From Natronococcus sp. A-GB7 (GTDB lineage Archaea; Halobacteriota; Halobacteria; Halobacteriales; Natrialbaceae), in the NCBI RefSeq assembly GCF_029688865.1, contig NZ_JARUKV010000008.1:62001-126000 (forward strand): DNA of 64,000 nt, read 5' to 3'. Position 1 is the first letter of the stretch, and each line of letters starts with the position of its first letter. This document shows, in pieces, positions 50,586 through 57,653 of this stretch. The notes beneath the pieces were generated by a model. It saw only the letters and a list, made by a program, of their open reading frames with translations, searched no databases and was not told the origin of the DNA. A program made the position numbers and the translations under genes.

Positions 50586-51434
50586 TTAGTAGCCGAGTTG
50601 GTCGAGGGTCGCCTCGAGTCGGCCGGGGTACCGACCGCCGAAGAGGTGAGCGTGAACCAGCAGCGGATAGAGCCGGTAGACGTACCGCCGCCGCTCGAAA
50701 AAGCCCGCCTCGATCCCCCGGCGTTCCCGGTAGCGCTCGAAGAAGGGGTCGCCGAAGGTCCCGGTCCAGTCGACGTAGGCGAGTTCGACCTCAGGATGGG
50801 CGTAGTACGTCGCTGGGTCGAGAAACGCCGTCACCGCGCCGTTTCGCGAGAGGACGTTCGTGGTCCAGACGTCGCCGTGGATCAGCCCGGGCGCCGCGGG
50901 CTCGGAGAGCAGGTCCTCGAGCTCCGAGCGGAGGGTCTCGAGGCGTTTCGCGAGCGAGGTCGACAGCGATCCCGACTCGAGCGCCAGGTCGGCGACGTGT
51001 TCGAGGCGCTGCTCGCGGTAGAAGTCGATCCAGGAGTCTGTCCAGGGGTTCGGCTGGCGAACGGGACCGGTGAGAGTGTCGCGTTCGAATCCGAACGCCC
51101 CGGCCTCGACGTCGTGCAGCCGAGCCAGGTGGTCCGCCGCGTTGCGCGCGACGGCGGGACCGTGATCCGCCGTTCCCGGGACGTGCTCGAGGACCAGCAG
51201 GTCGGGGCTGGCGTGGTAGACGGCGGGAACCGGGAGCTCGCTCTCGTCAGCCAGATACCGAAGCATGAACGCCTCGACCTCGAGGGGCGTCTCGCCCGTC
51301 TTCGCGACCACCGACGAGCCGTCGGCCAGCTCGACGCGGTGGACGGACCCGATCTGACCGCCCTCGAGCGCGGTCGTGTCGACGACGTCGCACTCGAGCG
51401 CGCGGGCGACCGCGTCGGCGATCGGCTCCCCCAT
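50586..51434 (-). CDS. Fructosamine kinase family protein
   Basis: 282 residues. The kinase-like fold has VVAKTGETPLEVEAFMLRYL (ATP Lys and helix C), LVLEHVPG (hinge), LIHGDVWTTNVL (catalytic loop) and AFLDPATYYAHPEVELAYVD. Fructosamine kinases phosphorylate ketosamines on proteins, allowing deglycation. The ATG at 51434 overlaps the stop of folA by one base (TAATG), making it the third gene of the thyA-folA operon. The functional link to folate enzymes is unclear. Confidence 0.92.
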   Translation of the reverse strand: MGEPIADAVARALECDVVDTTALEGGQIGSVHRVELADGSSVVAKTGETPLEVEAFMLRYLADESELPVPAVYHASPDLLVLEHVPGTADHGPAVARNAADHLARLHDVEAGAFGFERDTLTGPVRQPNPWTDSWIDFYREQRLEHVADLALESGSLSTSLAKRLETLRSELEDLLSEPAAPGLIHGDVWTTNVLSRNGAVTAFLDPATYYAHPEVELAYVDWTGTFGDPFFERYRERRGIEAGFFERRRYVYRLYPLLVHAHLFGGRYPGRLEATLDQLGY

Positions 51435-51967
51435 TACGCCTCGCGGACGTACTCGACGAACGCGAACCCGTCGCGCTCGTCCCGATCGACCTCGGTCCAG
51501 GCGTCGCGGTCCCAGTCGGGAAACTCGGTGTCGCCCGCCGGATCGCGGTCGACTTCCGTGACGACGAGTCGATCGAGAGCGGGAAGGAACCCCTCGTAGA
51601 CCGTCGCGCCGCCGGCGACGAACGCGGTGTCGACCCCGCCGTGGCGGTTCTCGGCCGCGGTCTCGGCCTTTCGAAGCGCCTCCTCGAGACTCCGCGCAAC
51701 CACGGCGTTCTCGGGGGTCTCGAGCTCCCGGCTCGTCAGCACGACCGTCGTCCGACCCGGCAGCGGCTCGCCGATCGCCTCGAGGATCCCCTCGTACGTT
51801 ACCCGCCCCATAATCACCGGGTGGTCCATCGTGGTCTCCTTGAAGTGTTGCAGATCCTCGGGGAGGTGCCAGGGCATCTCGCCGTCCCGCCCGATGACGC
51901 CGTTGTCGGCGACGGCGACGATCGCGGCGAGCTCGAGCTCGGTCTCGAGAGCCGAAGCGTCGGTCAT
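51434..51967 (-). CDS. folA: Dihydrofolate reductase
   Basis: 177 residues. The N-terminal AIVAVADNGVIGRDGEMPWH, the acidic Glu in LPEDLQHFK, VIMGRVTYEGI and FVAGGATVYEGFLP match DHFR. It reduces dihydrofolate, which thymidylate synthase upstream generates. The ATG overlaps the thyA stop (ATGA, 51964-51967), and its own stop overlaps the next start, so translation of all three genes is coupled. Confidence 0.95.
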   Translation of the reverse strand: MTDASALETELELAAIVAVADNGVIGRDGEMPWHLPEDLQHFKETTMDHPVIMGRVTYEGILEAIGEPLPGRTTVVLTSRELETPENAVVARSLEEALRKAETAAENRHGGVDTAFVAGGATVYEGFLPALDRLVVTEVDRDPAGDTEFPDWDRDAWTEVDRDERDGFAFVEYVREA

Positions 51968-52977
51968 TCTGCCACCGCGAACCGAAGCCCCTCGTGGGAG
52001 TCGTACCCCCGCAGCTCGAGGTCAGCCACCGAGAGATCGTCGATCGAGGCGTCGCCGATCTCGAGGGTTGGTCGCTCGAGTGGTTCCCGGGCACACTGCT
52101 CGAGCAGGCCAGGGACGTGGTCGAGCCGTTCGTCGCCGTCGGCCTCGGCGGGGGCCTCGCGCTCGAGCCATTCCCGGATCTCGCGGTACTCCTCCGTATC
52201 GTCGACGTCGGCGAGCCGGGACTGGAGGGCCTCGAGGTTGTCGGCGTACCACTCGCCGCGCTCGCCGCGGCCGCAGTAGACGTGGGCGTCGACGACGGTG
52301 TGGGCGAACGTGCCGGGCTCGAACCCGGTCTGTCTGGCGACGACCTTCGTCAGGAGCGCGTAGGCCGCGATGTTGAACGGCACGCCGAGCGCGACGTCGC
52401 CCGAACGCTGCGTGAGATGGCAGTTCAGGCGGTCGCCCTGGACGTTGAAGACGAAGGAGTAGTGACAGGGCGGCAGCGTCGAGACGGCGGCGTTCGCGGG
52501 GTGCCAGGCGTTGACCACGAGCCGTCTCGAGTTCGGCGAATCGGAAAGCGTGTCGACGACGTACTGGAGCTGATCGAACGTTCTTCGATTACCCTCCTCG
52601 GTGACCCAGCGATGACTCTCGTCGGGCCAGCTCTCGCCCTCGAGCTGACTCTCGCCGTCGGGAACCGGATAGCGCCGCCAGAACCGGCCGTAGGCGGTGT
52701 CGAGTCGGCCATCGTCGTCGGCCCAGGCGTCCCAGATCTTGGTCTCCTCGCGCAGCTCACGGATGTGCTCCTCGCCCGAGAGGTACCAGGCGACCTCGTG
52801 GAGCATCGAGTTCCACCGGTAGCCGTCCATCTTCTTGGTCGTCAACAGCGGGAACCCCTCCTGGAGGTCGACCTCGTAGTGTTCGCTGAACGACGAGATC
52901 GTGTCGACGCCGGTCCGGTTGGGTTTGTGGGTCCCGTCCGAGAGTACCGAGTCGACGAGCTCGAGGTACTGATGCAT
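51964..52977 (-). CDS. thyA: Thymidylate synthase
   Basis: 337 residues, of the ThyA type. RTGVDTISSF near the start, the catalytic Cys in LPPCHYSFVFNV, the folate/dUMP residues in RSGDVALGVPFNIAAYALL, and AHTVVDAHVYC. It makes dTMP and yields dihydrofolate, recycled by FolA encoded next. An acidic insertion after residue 240 makes it longer than the bacterial enzyme. First gene of the operon; the upstream 200 nt hold no gene. Confidence 0.96.
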   Translation of the reverse strand: MHQYLELVDSVLSDGTHKPNRTGVDTISSFSEHYEVDLQEGFPLLTTKKMDGYRWNSMLHEVAWYLSGEEHIRELREETKIWDAWADDDGRLDTAYGRFWRRYPVPDGESQLEGESWPDESHRWVTEEGNRRTFDQLQYVVDTLSDSPNSRRLVVNAWHPANAAVSTLPPCHYSFVFNVQGDRLNCHLTQRSGDVALGVPFNIAAYALLTKVVARQTGFEPGTFAHTVVDAHVYCGRGERGEWYADNLEALQSRLADVDDTEEYREIREWLEREAPAEADGDERLDHVPGLLEQCAREPLERPTLEIGDASIDDLSVADLELRGYDSHEGLRFAVAE

Positions 52978-53388: not shown

Positions 53389-54945
53389 ATGACGAGTCAC
53401 GCCGGGGCCCGCCTGCTCGCCCTTCCGCCGTCAGCCGTTCTCGGGCGCCCGGCCGAGACCCTCGCGGACGTCGATGCGACCCTCGAGCCCGACGCGGTCT
53501 GGCTGCTCGGCCCCGAACGCGAGGCGCGGGCCTTCGCACGGACACGACGGGAGTTCGACACGCCGGCGTTTCACCCCCCGCTCGAGACGAACGACGGACC
53601 CGTCTCCAGACAGGCTCTCGGGGCGGGACTCGAGGTTGCAGTCGTTCGAAGTATCCGTGCGCTTCGTGCGTCTCCTGCGGACGTCTCGAGGGCGCTGTCC
53701 GACACGCGTTCGAGTTCGACCCCGATCGCGGTCGTCTGTGACGACGTCACGACGACGACGCGACCGACGGCGCTCGAGACGACCCTCGAGGGGGCGGCCG
53801 AACTCGCGGCGGCACTGCCGACCGGTCGGGTGACGGCCGTCCTGACCGGGGGTCTTCCCGCCGACTACGACGAGCTGTGGCACCTCGAGGCCGAGACGGG
53901 CGCGGTTCGGGCCGTCGAGCACGAGCCCCAACTCGAGTGTGAGCCGGCCGGCGACGACTGCGTCTCCGTTCGGGTTCGAGGTGTCGGTCCCGTCGAGGGC
54001 TACGGCGGATCGGCGTCGCTCGCCGTCCTCGAACTCGACGAAACGGGAGTCACGACCGTCGACACGTCCGATACCTCGAACTTCGGCCTCGAGGCGGTCA
54101 CCGGCATCGGTCCGAAGACGGCGAAGCGACTCGCCGACTCCGAGGTGACGACGCGGGCGGAGCTCCTCGAGACGCCGATCGACGAACTCGCAGATTACCC
54201 CGGCGTCGGTCGGGACGGCGCACGCCGGATGCACCGCCACGCGACCGTGCTCGAGACGAACGAACCCCGGCGACTCACCGGCGAGTCGCTCCCGGGCGAG
54301 GGCGGGCGGCCCCCGCTGTGTCTCGATATCGAGACCGACGGACTCTCGCCGACGATCCTCTGGCAGATCGGGGTCTACGACCCGGTCGACGACTCGTACC
54401 GTGCGTTCGTCGAGCGCGACGACCCGGACGATCCCGCACCGGTGCTCGAGTCGTTCTGCGACTGGTTGTTCGCCAGTCACCCCGACAGGGCGCTGCTCAC
54501 CTGGAACGGCTGGCGCTTCGACTACCGCCACCTCGGGTCGTTCGTCACACGCCACGTGCCGTACTACGCCGACGAGTGGGAGTCGGTGCCGAAGTTCGAT
54601 CTCTACGACTGGGCCGTCCGCGAGGGGCACGCCCTGTTGCCGGGTCGGACGAACCGACTCGATGACGTCGCCGGCGCGCTCGGCTACGAGGGCGGCGGAA
54701 CCGGCCTCGACGGCGCGCAGACGGCAGCGGCCTACCAGCGGTTCGTGCGAACCGGCGAGGAGCTCGACTGGGATCGCCACGAGGCCTACTGCGAGGACGA
54801 CTGCCGGGCGCTGTGGCACGTCTACGACCGGCTCCGGGGCGCGCCGCGGGCAGCGGATCCGAGCGACACGTCTCCAGCGGACGCCGACGGAGCGACTCCC
54901 ACCGGAACGTCGGGAGGCGAACAGACCGGACTCGGTGATTTTTGA
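53389..54945 (+). CDS. RNase H-like DEDD exonuclease with HhH motifs (MrfB/YprB-like)
   Basis: 518 residues. The C-terminal part (about 305-490) is a DEDD 3'-5' exonuclease fold: LDIETDGLSP (Asp and Glu), LLTWNGWRFDYRHL (Asp) and YCEDDCRALWHVY (Asp). Before it lies a pair of helix-hairpin-helix motifs (VTGIGPKTAKRLADS; YPGVGRDGARRM, about 236-285), which bind DNA. The first 230 residues are a domain I do not recognise. ATG 53389 is chosen over the longer frame from 53248. The helicase gene starts 2 nt after its stop. In bacteria, MrfB (YprB) is encoded beside the MrfA helicase and both act in repair of mitomycin damage. Confidence 0.85.
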   Translation: MTSHAGARLLALPPSAVLGRPAETLADVDATLEPDAVWLLGPEREARAFARTRREFDTPAFHPPLETNDGPVSRQALGAGLEVAVVRSIRALRASPADVSRALSDTRSSSTPIAVVCDDVTTTTRPTALETTLEGAAELAAALPTGRVTAVLTGGLPADYDELWHLEAETGAVRAVEHEPQLECEPAGDDCVSVRVRGVGPVEGYGGSASLAVLELDETGVTTVDTSDTSNFGLEAVTGIGPKTAKRLADSEVTTRAELLETPIDELADYPGVGRDGARRMHRHATVLETNEPRRLTGESLPGEGGRPPLCLDIETDGLSPTILWQIGVYDPVDDSYRAFVERDDPDDPAPVLESFCDWLFASHPDRALLTWNGWRFDYRHLGSFVTRHVPYYADEWESVPKFDLYDWAVREGHALLPGRTNRLDDVAGALGYEGGGTGLDGAQTAAAYQRFVRTGEELDWDRHEAYCEDDCRALWHVYDRLRGAPRAADPSDTSPADADGATPTGTSGGEQTGLGDF

Positions 54946-54947
54946 GC

Positions 54948-57653
54948 ATGAATACGGACGACACCGCGGACGAAGACGCGATCGGGCCAGCCGACGGGAA
55001 CCGGGGCGACGTACCGATCACCGGCGACGAGCTGCTCGAGACGTTCCCTCGGTACCGCGACGACGAGGACGTCTCCGTCCTCGAGATTCCCGGCCGTGAG
55101 GCGTCGACGGTGCCGAACGACGAGGTCCTGCGGCCCGAACTCGCCGGCCCCCTCGAACAGGACCTGTACGCCCACCAGGCCGAGGCGCTCGCGGCGCTCG
55201 AGCGCGACGAGAACGTCTGCGTCGCGACGAGCACGTCGTCGGGAAAGACCCGGATCTACGCCCTCGAGATCGCCCGGAACGTCCTCGAAGCGCGCGCTCG
55301 CGGCGAGCGCTCGACCGCGTACGTGCTGTACCCGACGAAGGCGCTCTCGCGGGATCAGGAGCGGGAGCTGAACGACTTTTTCGAGCAACTGGGACTCGAC
55401 ATCTCGGTCCGAGTGTACGACGGCGACACGGACCCCGGCGAGACCCGACGGCAGATTCGCGAGGAGGCCGACGTGATCATCTCGAACTTCGCGGGCGTGA
55501 ACACGTACCTGCACGATCACGACCGCTGGGCGCGCTTTCTCTCGAGCTGTGAGCTCGTCGTGATCGACGAGTCCCACACCTACACCGGCGTCCACGGCAT
55601 GCACGTCGCCTGGGTCCTCAGACGATTGAAGCGGGTCCTCGAGTACTACGGCGCCGACCCGCAGTTCGCGCTCACGAGCGCGACGATCGGCAACCCCGGC
55701 GAGCACTCGAGCGCCCTGATCGACGAGCCAGTGACGGTGGTCGACGAGGACGGCTCGCCCGCGGGGCCACGAGAGCTGGTGCTCTGGAACCCGCCGGCTC
55801 GAGCGCGAGCAGACGGTGCGGACAGCGATTCGACGACCACCGGCGGGAGCGAGGACGAAGCTGACGACGCCGTCGTCGACCGCGTTCCCGCGAGCGTCGA
55901 GGCGCCGAAGCTCCTCTCGCACCTGTGTTACCACGACGCCCAGACGCTGCTGTTTACGCCCTCGCGGAAGCTCTCCGAGCTGTCGATCAGGCGGGCGTCG
56001 ACCCACCGCCGCGACCGAAGTCGGTACTACACGAACCCCGATCGGGGGAGCGAAATCGAACCCTACCACGCCGGCCACTCGCGGACGAAACGCCACGGGA
56101 CCGAACACCGACTCAAGACCGGTGCGCTCGACGGCGTCGCCTCGACGAACGCCCTCGAGCTGGGGATCAACGTCGGCGAGATGGACGCGACGGTCCAGCT
56201 CGGCTACCCGGGCCAGCGCCAGTCGTTCTGGCAGCAGATCGGCCGCGCGGGTCGGGGAACGAAGCGGGCGCTCTCGGTGCTCGTAGCGGGGCATCGCACC
56301 CTCGATCAGTACGTCGCGAACAACCCCGACTACCTGCTCGAGACCGACGTGGAGGACGCGGTCGTCGACGTCGATAACGACGCGGTGTTCGCCCGACACC
56401 TCCTGTGTGCGGCGGACGAACTCGCCCTCGAGGAGGCCGACACGGGCGCGTTCGCCGGGCGCGAGCGACTCGAGGGCGCCGTCGAGATGTGGCGCCGCGC
56501 GGGTCGGTTGGCGGGCCACCTCGAGACGGGCGTCTCCTACGTCGGCCCGCCCCGCCCCCAGGGGTCGATCTCGCTGTACGCGACGTCCGGCGAGGAGTAC
56601 GTCGTCGAACTCGCCGACGGCGTCGACGAGCGACACGATCCCGAGATGGAGCCCCTCGCCGAGGAGCGAGTCCTGCGGGACTTCCACGAGGGCGCGATCA
56701 GGCTCCACGAGGGCCAGCAGTACGAGGTCGTCGGTGTCGACCACGACTCGCCCCGGCCCACGGTGACGCTCCGACCGACGGACGCCGACTGCTACACCCG
56801 AACCCGGACCGACGTGACGGTCCTCGACGCCGTCCCGGAGGAGTCCCGCGAGATCGGCGACTTCGCGCTGCACTTCGGACGCGGACGGGTGTTAGTCTAC
56901 CACGGCACCTACGACCGGGTCGACGTCGACAGCGGCGACCCGAAGGAACAGGGGATCCCGACGGAGAACCCGCCGCTGTCGATCGAGACCCAGCTCTGCT
57001 GGCTCGAGGTGCCCGACCGCGTCGAACGGGCGCTCGTCGAGCGCTACCGCGAGTTCTCGCTCGAGGACGAGGACGGGGACGGAGACGGAAACGAACCCGC
57101 GGCGACGGCCCACCTCGGCTACGCGGGTGGACTCCACGCCGCCGAGCACGCGACCATCGGCGTCGCGCCGCTCGAGCTGATGGTCGACAAGCGCGATCTG
57201 GGCGGGCTCGCGACGCTCTCGATCGACTCGCACCTCGAGCGGGAGCGAGGCGAGAACGGGACGACGGGTGAGCGGGCTCCGCGCAACGTCGCCGCGGCCG
57301 AGGCCACCGTCAGAGAGATCGCCGACGGCCTCGAGCACGAGCCGAAAAGCGGCTGGTTCATCTACGACGGGATCGACGGCGGACTCGGCTTCTCGCGGGC
57401 GATCTACGAGAACTTCGAGGCCGTCGCCGAGCGCGCACGGGAGCTGATCGCGGACTGCGACTGCGGCCGCGTCGACGGCTGTCCGGCCTGCGTGATGGAC
57501 GACCAGTGTGGCAACGACAACCAGCCGTTACACCGCGAAGCCGCCGTCGACGTGCTGGATCGGTTGCTCGGAAACGAGGACCGGGAGGCGCTCGAGGCCC
57601 CCGCCGAGACCGAACCTGGCGGTGATCGGCGGCCGCCGTTGTTCTACTCCTGA
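54948..57653 (+). CDS. DEAD/DEAH-box helicase with DUF1998 zinc domain (MrfA/YprA-like)
   Basis: 901 residues. Superfamily-2 helicase motifs: STSSGKTRIYAL (about 94), VVIDESHTY (DExH box as DESH, about 203), TSATIGNP (about 245), TNALELGINVG and QQIGRAGRG. The C-terminal DUF1998 (MZB) domain holds a cysteine cluster, CDCGRVDGCPACVMDDQC, near residue 838. This is the full YprA/MrfA architecture, a 3'-5' DNA helicase. ATG 54948 follows the exonuclease stop by 2 nt. An Asp/Glu-rich N terminus and linkers are halophilic traits. In Bacillus the pair works in UvrA-independent mitomycin repair; the same job here is inference. Confidence 0.92.
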   Translation: MNTDDTADEDAIGPADGNRGDVPITGDELLETFPRYRDDEDVSVLEIPGREASTVPNDEVLRPELAGPLEQDLYAHQAEALAALERDENVCVATSTSSGKTRIYALEIARNVLEARARGERSTAYVLYPTKALSRDQERELNDFFEQLGLDISVRVYDGDTDPGETRRQIREEADVIISNFAGVNTYLHDHDRWARFLSSCELVVIDESHTYTGVHGMHVAWVLRRLKRVLEYYGADPQFALTSATIGNPGEHSSALIDEPVTVVDEDGSPAGPRELVLWNPPARARADGADSDSTTTGGSEDEADDAVVDRVPASVEAPKLLSHLCYHDAQTLLFTPSRKLSELSIRRASTHRRDRSRYYTNPDRGSEIEPYHAGHSRTKRHGTEHRLKTGALDGVASTNALELGINVGEMDATVQLGYPGQRQSFWQQIGRAGRGTKRALSVLVAGHRTLDQYVANNPDYLLETDVEDAVVDVDNDAVFARHLLCAADELALEEADTGAFAGRERLEGAVEMWRRAGRLAGHLETGVSYVGPPRPQGSISLYATSGEEYVVELADGVDERHDPEMEPLAEERVLRDFHEGAIRLHEGQQYEVVGVDHDSPRPTVTLRPTDADCYTRTRTDVTVLDAVPEESREIGDFALHFGRGRVLVYHGTYDRVDVDSGDPKEQGIPTENPPLSIETQLCWLEVPDRVERALVERYREFSLEDEDGDGDGNEPAATAHLGYAGGLHAAEHATIGVAPLELMVDKRDLGGLATLSIDSHLERERGENGTTGERAPRNVAAAEATVREIADGLEHEPKSGWFIYDGIDGGLGFSRAIYENFEAVAERARELIADCDCGRVDGCPACVMDDQCGNDNQPLHREAAVDVLDRLLGNEDREALEAPAETEPGGDRRPPLFYS

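Follow-up and report, generated by a model that had tools for sequence, protein, structure and literature searches.

A candidate PCNA-tethered helicase–exonuclease repair module of Halobacteria, MrfAB-like with a different exonuclease

The window analysed here, a stretch of 64,000 nucleotides from Natronococcus sp. A-GB7 (contig NZ_JARUKV010000008.1, positions 62,001 to 126,000 of the forward strand), carries on its plus strand two genes whose products, with a probability of about 0.6, form a PCNA-tethered helicase–exonuclease DNA-repair module of Halobacteria that resembles the MrfAB pair of Bacillus but uses a different exonuclease. The first gene (53389..54945; open reading frame (ORF) of 518 aa, ATG start) encodes a predicted DEDDy 3'-5' exonuclease and the second (54948..57653; ORF of 901 aa, ATG start) a superfamily 2 helicase of the MrfA/YprA type. 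These ORF boundaries, on the same strand with a 2-nt gap, are those given in a first-pass annotation of the same DNA, which had proposed a haloarchaeal counterpart of MrfAB. What the analysis shows is the pairing and co-variation of the two genes, their domains, the intact catalytic residues, a phosphoesterase-like fold without metal motifs, a universal PCNA-interacting peptide (PIP) box and descent apart from MrfB. The enzymatic activities, binding to PCNA, a physical complex of the two proteins and the lesions handled, most likely bulky adducts or crosslinks, are predictions from sequence.

A conserved pair with an exonuclease apart from MrfB

The helicase contains DEAD (E=3.1e-25), Helicase_C (E=3.9e-12) and MZB (E=4.9e-16) domains by Pfam, the last being the MrfA zinc-binding domain formerly called DUF1998, as the first-pass annotation had recognised, and its sequence carries the motifs DESH and QQIGRAGRG. 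MZB covers residues 732-849 (57141..57494) and is followed by C854; the C-terminal cysteines 837, 839, 845, 848 and 854, expected to bind zinc, are kept in 99% of pairs. The best PDB match is Bacillus subtilis MrfA/YprA (6znp, E=1.7e-96, over most of the length), a winged-helix match (WHD_HRQ1, 23.2 bits) stays under its 27-bit cut-off, and translocation would be of 3'-5' polarity. Both the haloarchaeal protein and B. subtilis MrfA thus combine DEAD and Helicase_C with a C-terminal zinc (MZB) domain, whereas the haloarchaeal helicase has a longer insert in the MZB region, a different exonuclease partner and a long-branched clade of its own. In trees built with MrfA of methanogens and of B. subtilis, standalone YprA-like helicases of haloarchaea and further sequences, the haloarchaeal pair helicases form a single fully supported clade. 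Approximately unbiased (AU) tests allow this clade to join the methanogen pairs (p = 0.53), the standalone group (0.42) or MrfA (0.37). The first-pass annotation had named a grouping of the helicase with a non-MrfA DUF1998 lineage as one result that would refute it; what the trees return is a separate clade for which union with MrfA is one of three compatible placements. By domains and closest structure, the pair helicase classifies as MrfA/YprA-type, the kind associated with repair.

The survey of gene adjacency that had been proposed for this locus was run on two samples. An exonuclease match was found in 100 of the 242 haloarchaeal genomes searched, with a strong helicase match adjoining in the same genomes; seven genomes with a distant relative or a bare helix-hairpin-helix (HhH) match only were left out of the pair count, which puts the pair in about 93 of 242 genomes, and within the window's family in 51 of 61. 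Scanning a collection of named genomes gave 80 loci, every one from Halobacteria, and the nearest of these are Natronococcus at 86% identity. The two genes lie on one strand in all 81 loci (the window plus the 80 named). Both ORFs are complete at 76 of these, and at 64 of the 76 the genes overlap or lie no more than 10 nt apart. Pairwise identities of exonuclease and helicase are correlated at r = 0.96, against a maximum of 0.13 in 500 permutations. The pairing is therefore not due to chance.

Two Pfam domains are found in the exonuclease, HHH_5 at residues 234-283 (E=2.5e-10) and RNase_H_2 at residues 310-482 (E=1e-28; 54316..54834). The first marks a tandem (HhH)2 domain (residues 234-290, 54088..54258), whose region gives profile matches to the HhH domains of L32e, Rad51/RadA and NusA; its two motifs, VTGIGPKTAKRL and YPGVGRDGARRM, can be read directly in the sequence, as had been noted from the letters. 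The second is the catalytic core, in which D313, E315, D378, Y467 and D471 are invariant across an alignment of 68 exonucleases and YCxxD occurs in all 139 distinct exonucleases. Tyr467 occupies the position of a histidine in MrfB: the B. subtilis enzyme is of the DEDDh type with catalytic His258 (PMC11194089), and HNxxD is found in 8un9, its structure, as well as in methanogen MrfB.

Methanogens and their relatives in the same phylum provide the relevant comparison. In their genomes the gene immediately before that of an MZB helicase encodes an RNase_H_2 exonuclease of ~360 aa. One such exonuclease finds B. subtilis MrfB (8un9) with E=7.6e-20, so that canonical MrfB–MrfA pairs do occur in archaea. 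The haloarchaeal exonuclease profile gave no MrfB match at E<=1 among the best 60 of 124 PDB matches. In exonuclease-domain trees B. subtilis and methanogen MrfB form one clade (support 96/89, or 100/96 with more taxa) and the haloarchaeal protein falls outside it. The TPR domain of B. subtilis MrfB was not found in the haloarchaeal exonuclease either, whose chain ends past the exonuclease core with a disordered tail. Both proteins share the RNase_H_2 DEDD 3'-5' exonuclease fold and a gene position beside an MrfA-type helicase, but the haloarchaeal one is DEDDy, belongs to a separate clade and adds a phosphoesterase-like domain, (HhH)2 and a PIP-box.

The explanation that survives best beside a clamp-tethered module is ordinary orthology, in which the exonuclease descends from MrfB, having diverged and gained domains, and the pair performs UvrA-independent mitomycin repair as in Bacillus. 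The helicase type and the pairing are those of MrfAB, in methanogens, which belong to the same phylum, a true MrfB gene precedes that of MrfA, the order also seen here, and a haloarchaeal and methanogen helicase clade is compatible with the AU test given above. We nevertheless consider orthology unlikely: the missing 8un9 match contrasts with the strong one of methanogen MrfB, the exonuclease lies outside the MrfB clade, is DEDDy rather than DEDDh and has no TPR, and its closest relatives are phosphoesterase-HhH-exonuclease proteins (100/96). On these grounds of phylogeny, motif and architecture the haloarchaeal exonuclease is, as far as its sequence tells, not MrfB. Haloarchaea appear to have recruited a different exonuclease as helicase partner, an exonuclease swap being the simplest reading since true MrfB–MrfA pairs occur in the same phylum. 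Of the counterpart proposed by the first-pass annotation, the stable pairing of an MrfA/YprA-type helicase with a DEDD exonuclease is supported, as is the suggestion that the layout of that exonuclease is new; its identity with MrfB is not supported.

Several observations on related exonucleases stand apart from this question. The canonical pairs of methanogens and other Halobacteriota (L246-L265), with the exonuclease gene upstream, have an MrfB that likewise stops at the exonuclease domain, which makes archaeal MrfB without a TPR a natural variant in its own right. Membership of the haloarchaeal exonuclease in the TM0106 family (TIGR03491: RecB-like, HhH and RNase H-like) was rejected at 46.9 bits against a family cut-off of 97.45; the C-terminal half of HhH and RNase H-like domains aligns weakly, whereas the N-terminal domain is not RecB-like. 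A small (~250 aa) Tyr-type RNase_H_2 exonuclease occurs in 24 of 24 sampled haloarchaeal genomes and, outside the haloarchaea, in a single family of the phylum (f13), with a copy in the window's own genome (L001:1204-2001) and others at L187-L215.

The predicted N-terminal scaffold and clamp-docking tail

The N-terminal domain of the exonuclease (residues 1-230, 53389..54078) had been described as unrecognisable, and at the level of sequence it is: Pfam gives no match in the window protein and no consistent family across 68 members. Structure prediction, which the first-pass annotation had suggested, gave a confident model with AlphaFold2 from 68 homologues (predicted local distance difference test (pLDDT) 89.7 for the whole exonuclease, 92.4 for residues 1-233 alone). 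The first 12 Foldseek matches of the domain in the PDB are all calcineurin-like metallophosphoesterases; they include a 5'-nucleotidase (best, E=3.1e-6), SapH, Vps29, TT1561, Mre11, YfcE, MJ0936 and aq_1956. The GHxH metal motif is present in none of 133 N-terminal domains, the one motif for which a count is given, as raw DxH and GDxx patterns matched chance positions. From reading the alignment, the DxH, GDxxD and GNHD motifs also seem to be absent from the equivalent places, since GP, HP.L and TGxxPA stand in the family consensus where GD, GNHD and GHxH would fall. The modelled domain is thus best described as a degenerate calcineurin-like phosphoesterase fold that has lost its metal motifs, a decay with which the silence of Pfam is expected.

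Independent support for this identity comes from the sister clade of the pair exonucleases (100/96 in the exonuclease-domain tree), which consists of haloarchaeal, often plasmid-borne proteins that are DEDDy and have the same domain order, with an N-terminus that Pfam does recognise as Metallophos (PF00149, E=5.6e-9 and 1.7e-10). Its members are L301, L302, L305, L308 and L309, with a longer variant in L304 (genes at L301:3326-4765, L302:2573-4015, L308:6287-7732 and L309:6287-7732). In two plasmids (L308, L309) the sister gene stands beside genes for an SRAP protein (abasic-site shield), a B-family DNA polymerase (PolB) and orc1/cdc6. The sister proteins differ from the pair exonucleases in having no PIP-box, and no MrfA-type helicase is found among the annotated neighbours of their gene in L308 and L309. 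A search of IMG/VR with the sister protein returned no match.

At its C-terminus the exonuclease carries a feature that the first-pass annotation does not mention, a PIP-box (QTGLGDF, residues 512-518, 54922..54942) on a tail (residues 500-518) predicted to be disordered with pLDDT below 50. All 139 distinct exonucleases have Q-x-x-[LIM]-x-[DES]-[FWYA] in their last 14 residues (QTGLGDF, QTGLSDF, QGTLSDF and similar), and the tail ahead of the motif is poorly conserved, with a mean majority frequency of 0.32 versus 0.76 for the motif. A stricter PIP pattern had 75 matches among 1693 ORFs of at least 200 aa from the 81 loci surveyed, an uncurated background with many spurious antisense ORFs, and all 75 are pair exonucleases. 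The haloarchaeal PIP-box has been given as QxxLxxFx (PMC7776575), and PCNA clients of the same genome served as controls: FEN1 ends in QTGLDRWT, RNase HII ends in QTGLEQF and NreA has QSNLSAF near its C-terminus. No such tail was seen in the methanogen MrfBs or plasmid sister proteins examined. The exonuclease tail would dock on PCNA. In this it is comparable to NreA, a PIP-dependent mitomycin-repair factor in Haloferax (PMC4929162); the two share a C-terminal PIP-box, and NreA of Haloferax volcanii is a repair protein whose function needs PCNA docking, but it belongs to an unrelated protein family and acts with UvrABC.

Proposed mechanism and its rivals

In the mechanism we propose, the MrfA-type helicase would open damaged or stalled DNA and the DEDDy exonuclease would then degrade the exposed 3' end, with the (HhH)2 domain holding DNA without sequence specificity and the dead phosphoesterase-like domain serving as a scaffold for helicase or DNA. 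The flexible C-terminal PIP-box would dock on PCNA, so that excision takes place at sites of replication or repair synthesis, where the gap can be refilled. The conserved clamp hook suggests a link between this repair step and the machinery of replication, and since the same genome also encodes UvrA and NreA, the module would come on top of nucleotide excision repair. Beyond this lies a more specific and more tentative claim, to which we give somewhat less than even odds, that in haloarchaea MrfB gave way to an exonuclease from a different lineage, one carrying an inactive phosphoesterase domain as scaffold and a PIP-box in every member, and that the result is the first MrfA-type repair machine coupled physically to the sliding clamp.

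For Bacillus MrfAB it is unknown how lesions are found, given that no UvrA is needed, and the role of the MrfB TPR is unknown as well. A swapped exonuclease with a clamp-docking motif would make the targeting mechanism open to test and give genetics a handle of seven codons to delete and, if true, PCNA-coordinated excision rather than recruitment by a damage sensor would be the targeting principle. It would also link MrfA-type repair to an archaeal PCNA network that already contains the mitomycin factor NreA, and would add a case of a catalytic phosphoesterase fold turned scaffold beside an exonuclease. The B-subunits of eukaryotic DNA polymerases are likewise a phosphoesterase fold turned scaffold next to an exonuclease. 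The open literature searched contained no account of this pair in haloarchaea, of its PIP-box or of the phosphoesterase-like domain, and prior notice in subscription papers or in supplementary tables is possible.

Several points weigh against a clamp-tethered repair module. The helicase branch is long and three tree attempts did not fix its sister group. The TM-scores of the N-terminal domain are modest (0.27-0.48 by query length), the domain was recognised by fold search where sequence methods failed, and a profile–profile comparison (hhalign) with the phosphoesterase of the sister family fails at a probability of 0.2%, so that a common origin of the two N-termini is argued from fold and position. 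The PIP-box has one aromatic residue (F) instead of two, a reduction also seen in haloarchaeal clients of the same genome. Finally, the spread of the pair outside Natrialbaceae is patchy and often plasmid-borne, which is unusual for core repair.

This last point also bears on an improbable second rival, less credible than orthology, in which the pair helps replication or plasmid maintenance (trimming of Okazaki ends or 3' flaps, fork restart) and does not repair lesions. Such a role would fit the PIP-box, the frequent plasmid carriage, the location of the sister exonuclease gene on plasmids next to those for PolB and orc1/cdc6, and the chromosomal neighbours, namely genes for dihydrofolate reductase and thymidylate synthase (51434..52977, minus strand) that are divergent from the pair. 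However, the pair is absent from about 60% of haloarchaeal genomes and so is not essential, MrfA relatives act in repair, and the sister gene also adjoins that for SRAP, a DNA-damage protein. A role in defence, with the pair attacking the DNA of viruses or plasmids as it replicates, in the manner of DISARM, Dpd or Druantia, seems the least probable of all: YprA-family helicases drive several immune systems (PMC12458937), and plasmid copies are many, one lineage having a gene of ThiF/JAB type and another YprA helicase as neighbours, but PADLOC gives matches to the helicase core only and none to the exonuclease, YprA proteins of defence systems carry other nucleases, the PIP-box points to the host clamp, and the Natrialbaceae copies have fixed housekeeping neighbours.

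Chromosomal neighbours and plasmid copies

The context of dihydrofolate reductase and thymidylate synthase genes is kept around the chromosomal copies in Natrialbaceae; among the named loci, all those from Natrialbaceae that fall in the window's clade have thyA adjoining the pair. Outside this family the pair is often on plasmids. The exonuclease query has matches in 47 plasmid records, mostly with the helicase alongside, the weakest matches being the sister phosphoesterase-HhH-exonuclease family. On plasmid PHS3 of Halobacterium salinarum R1, for instance, the pair is OE_RS12870 and OE_RS12865, with an exonuclease that ends in QGTLADFSR, and a third RNase H-like gene (214 aa, PolB-exonuclease-like; L294:10488-11132) lies downstream on the same strand.

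On a plasmid of Haloarcula litorea (L296:1-10553) the pair adjoins genes for another YprA-like helicase, this one standalone, for a ThiF/JAB-like protein and, by annotation, for a tyrosyl-DNA phosphodiesterase, and similar plasmids occur in Haloplanus, Halorussus, Haloprofundus, Natribaculum and Natronosalvus. The standalone helicase is near-identical across haloarchaeal families, which suggests recent plasmid transfer. The sister gene with SRAP, PolB and orc1/cdc6 may represent an uncharacterised plasmid repair cluster. The window's own genome also encodes an MZB helicase of 1766 aa, large and of the size seen in defence systems (L283:3916-9213, contig C28).

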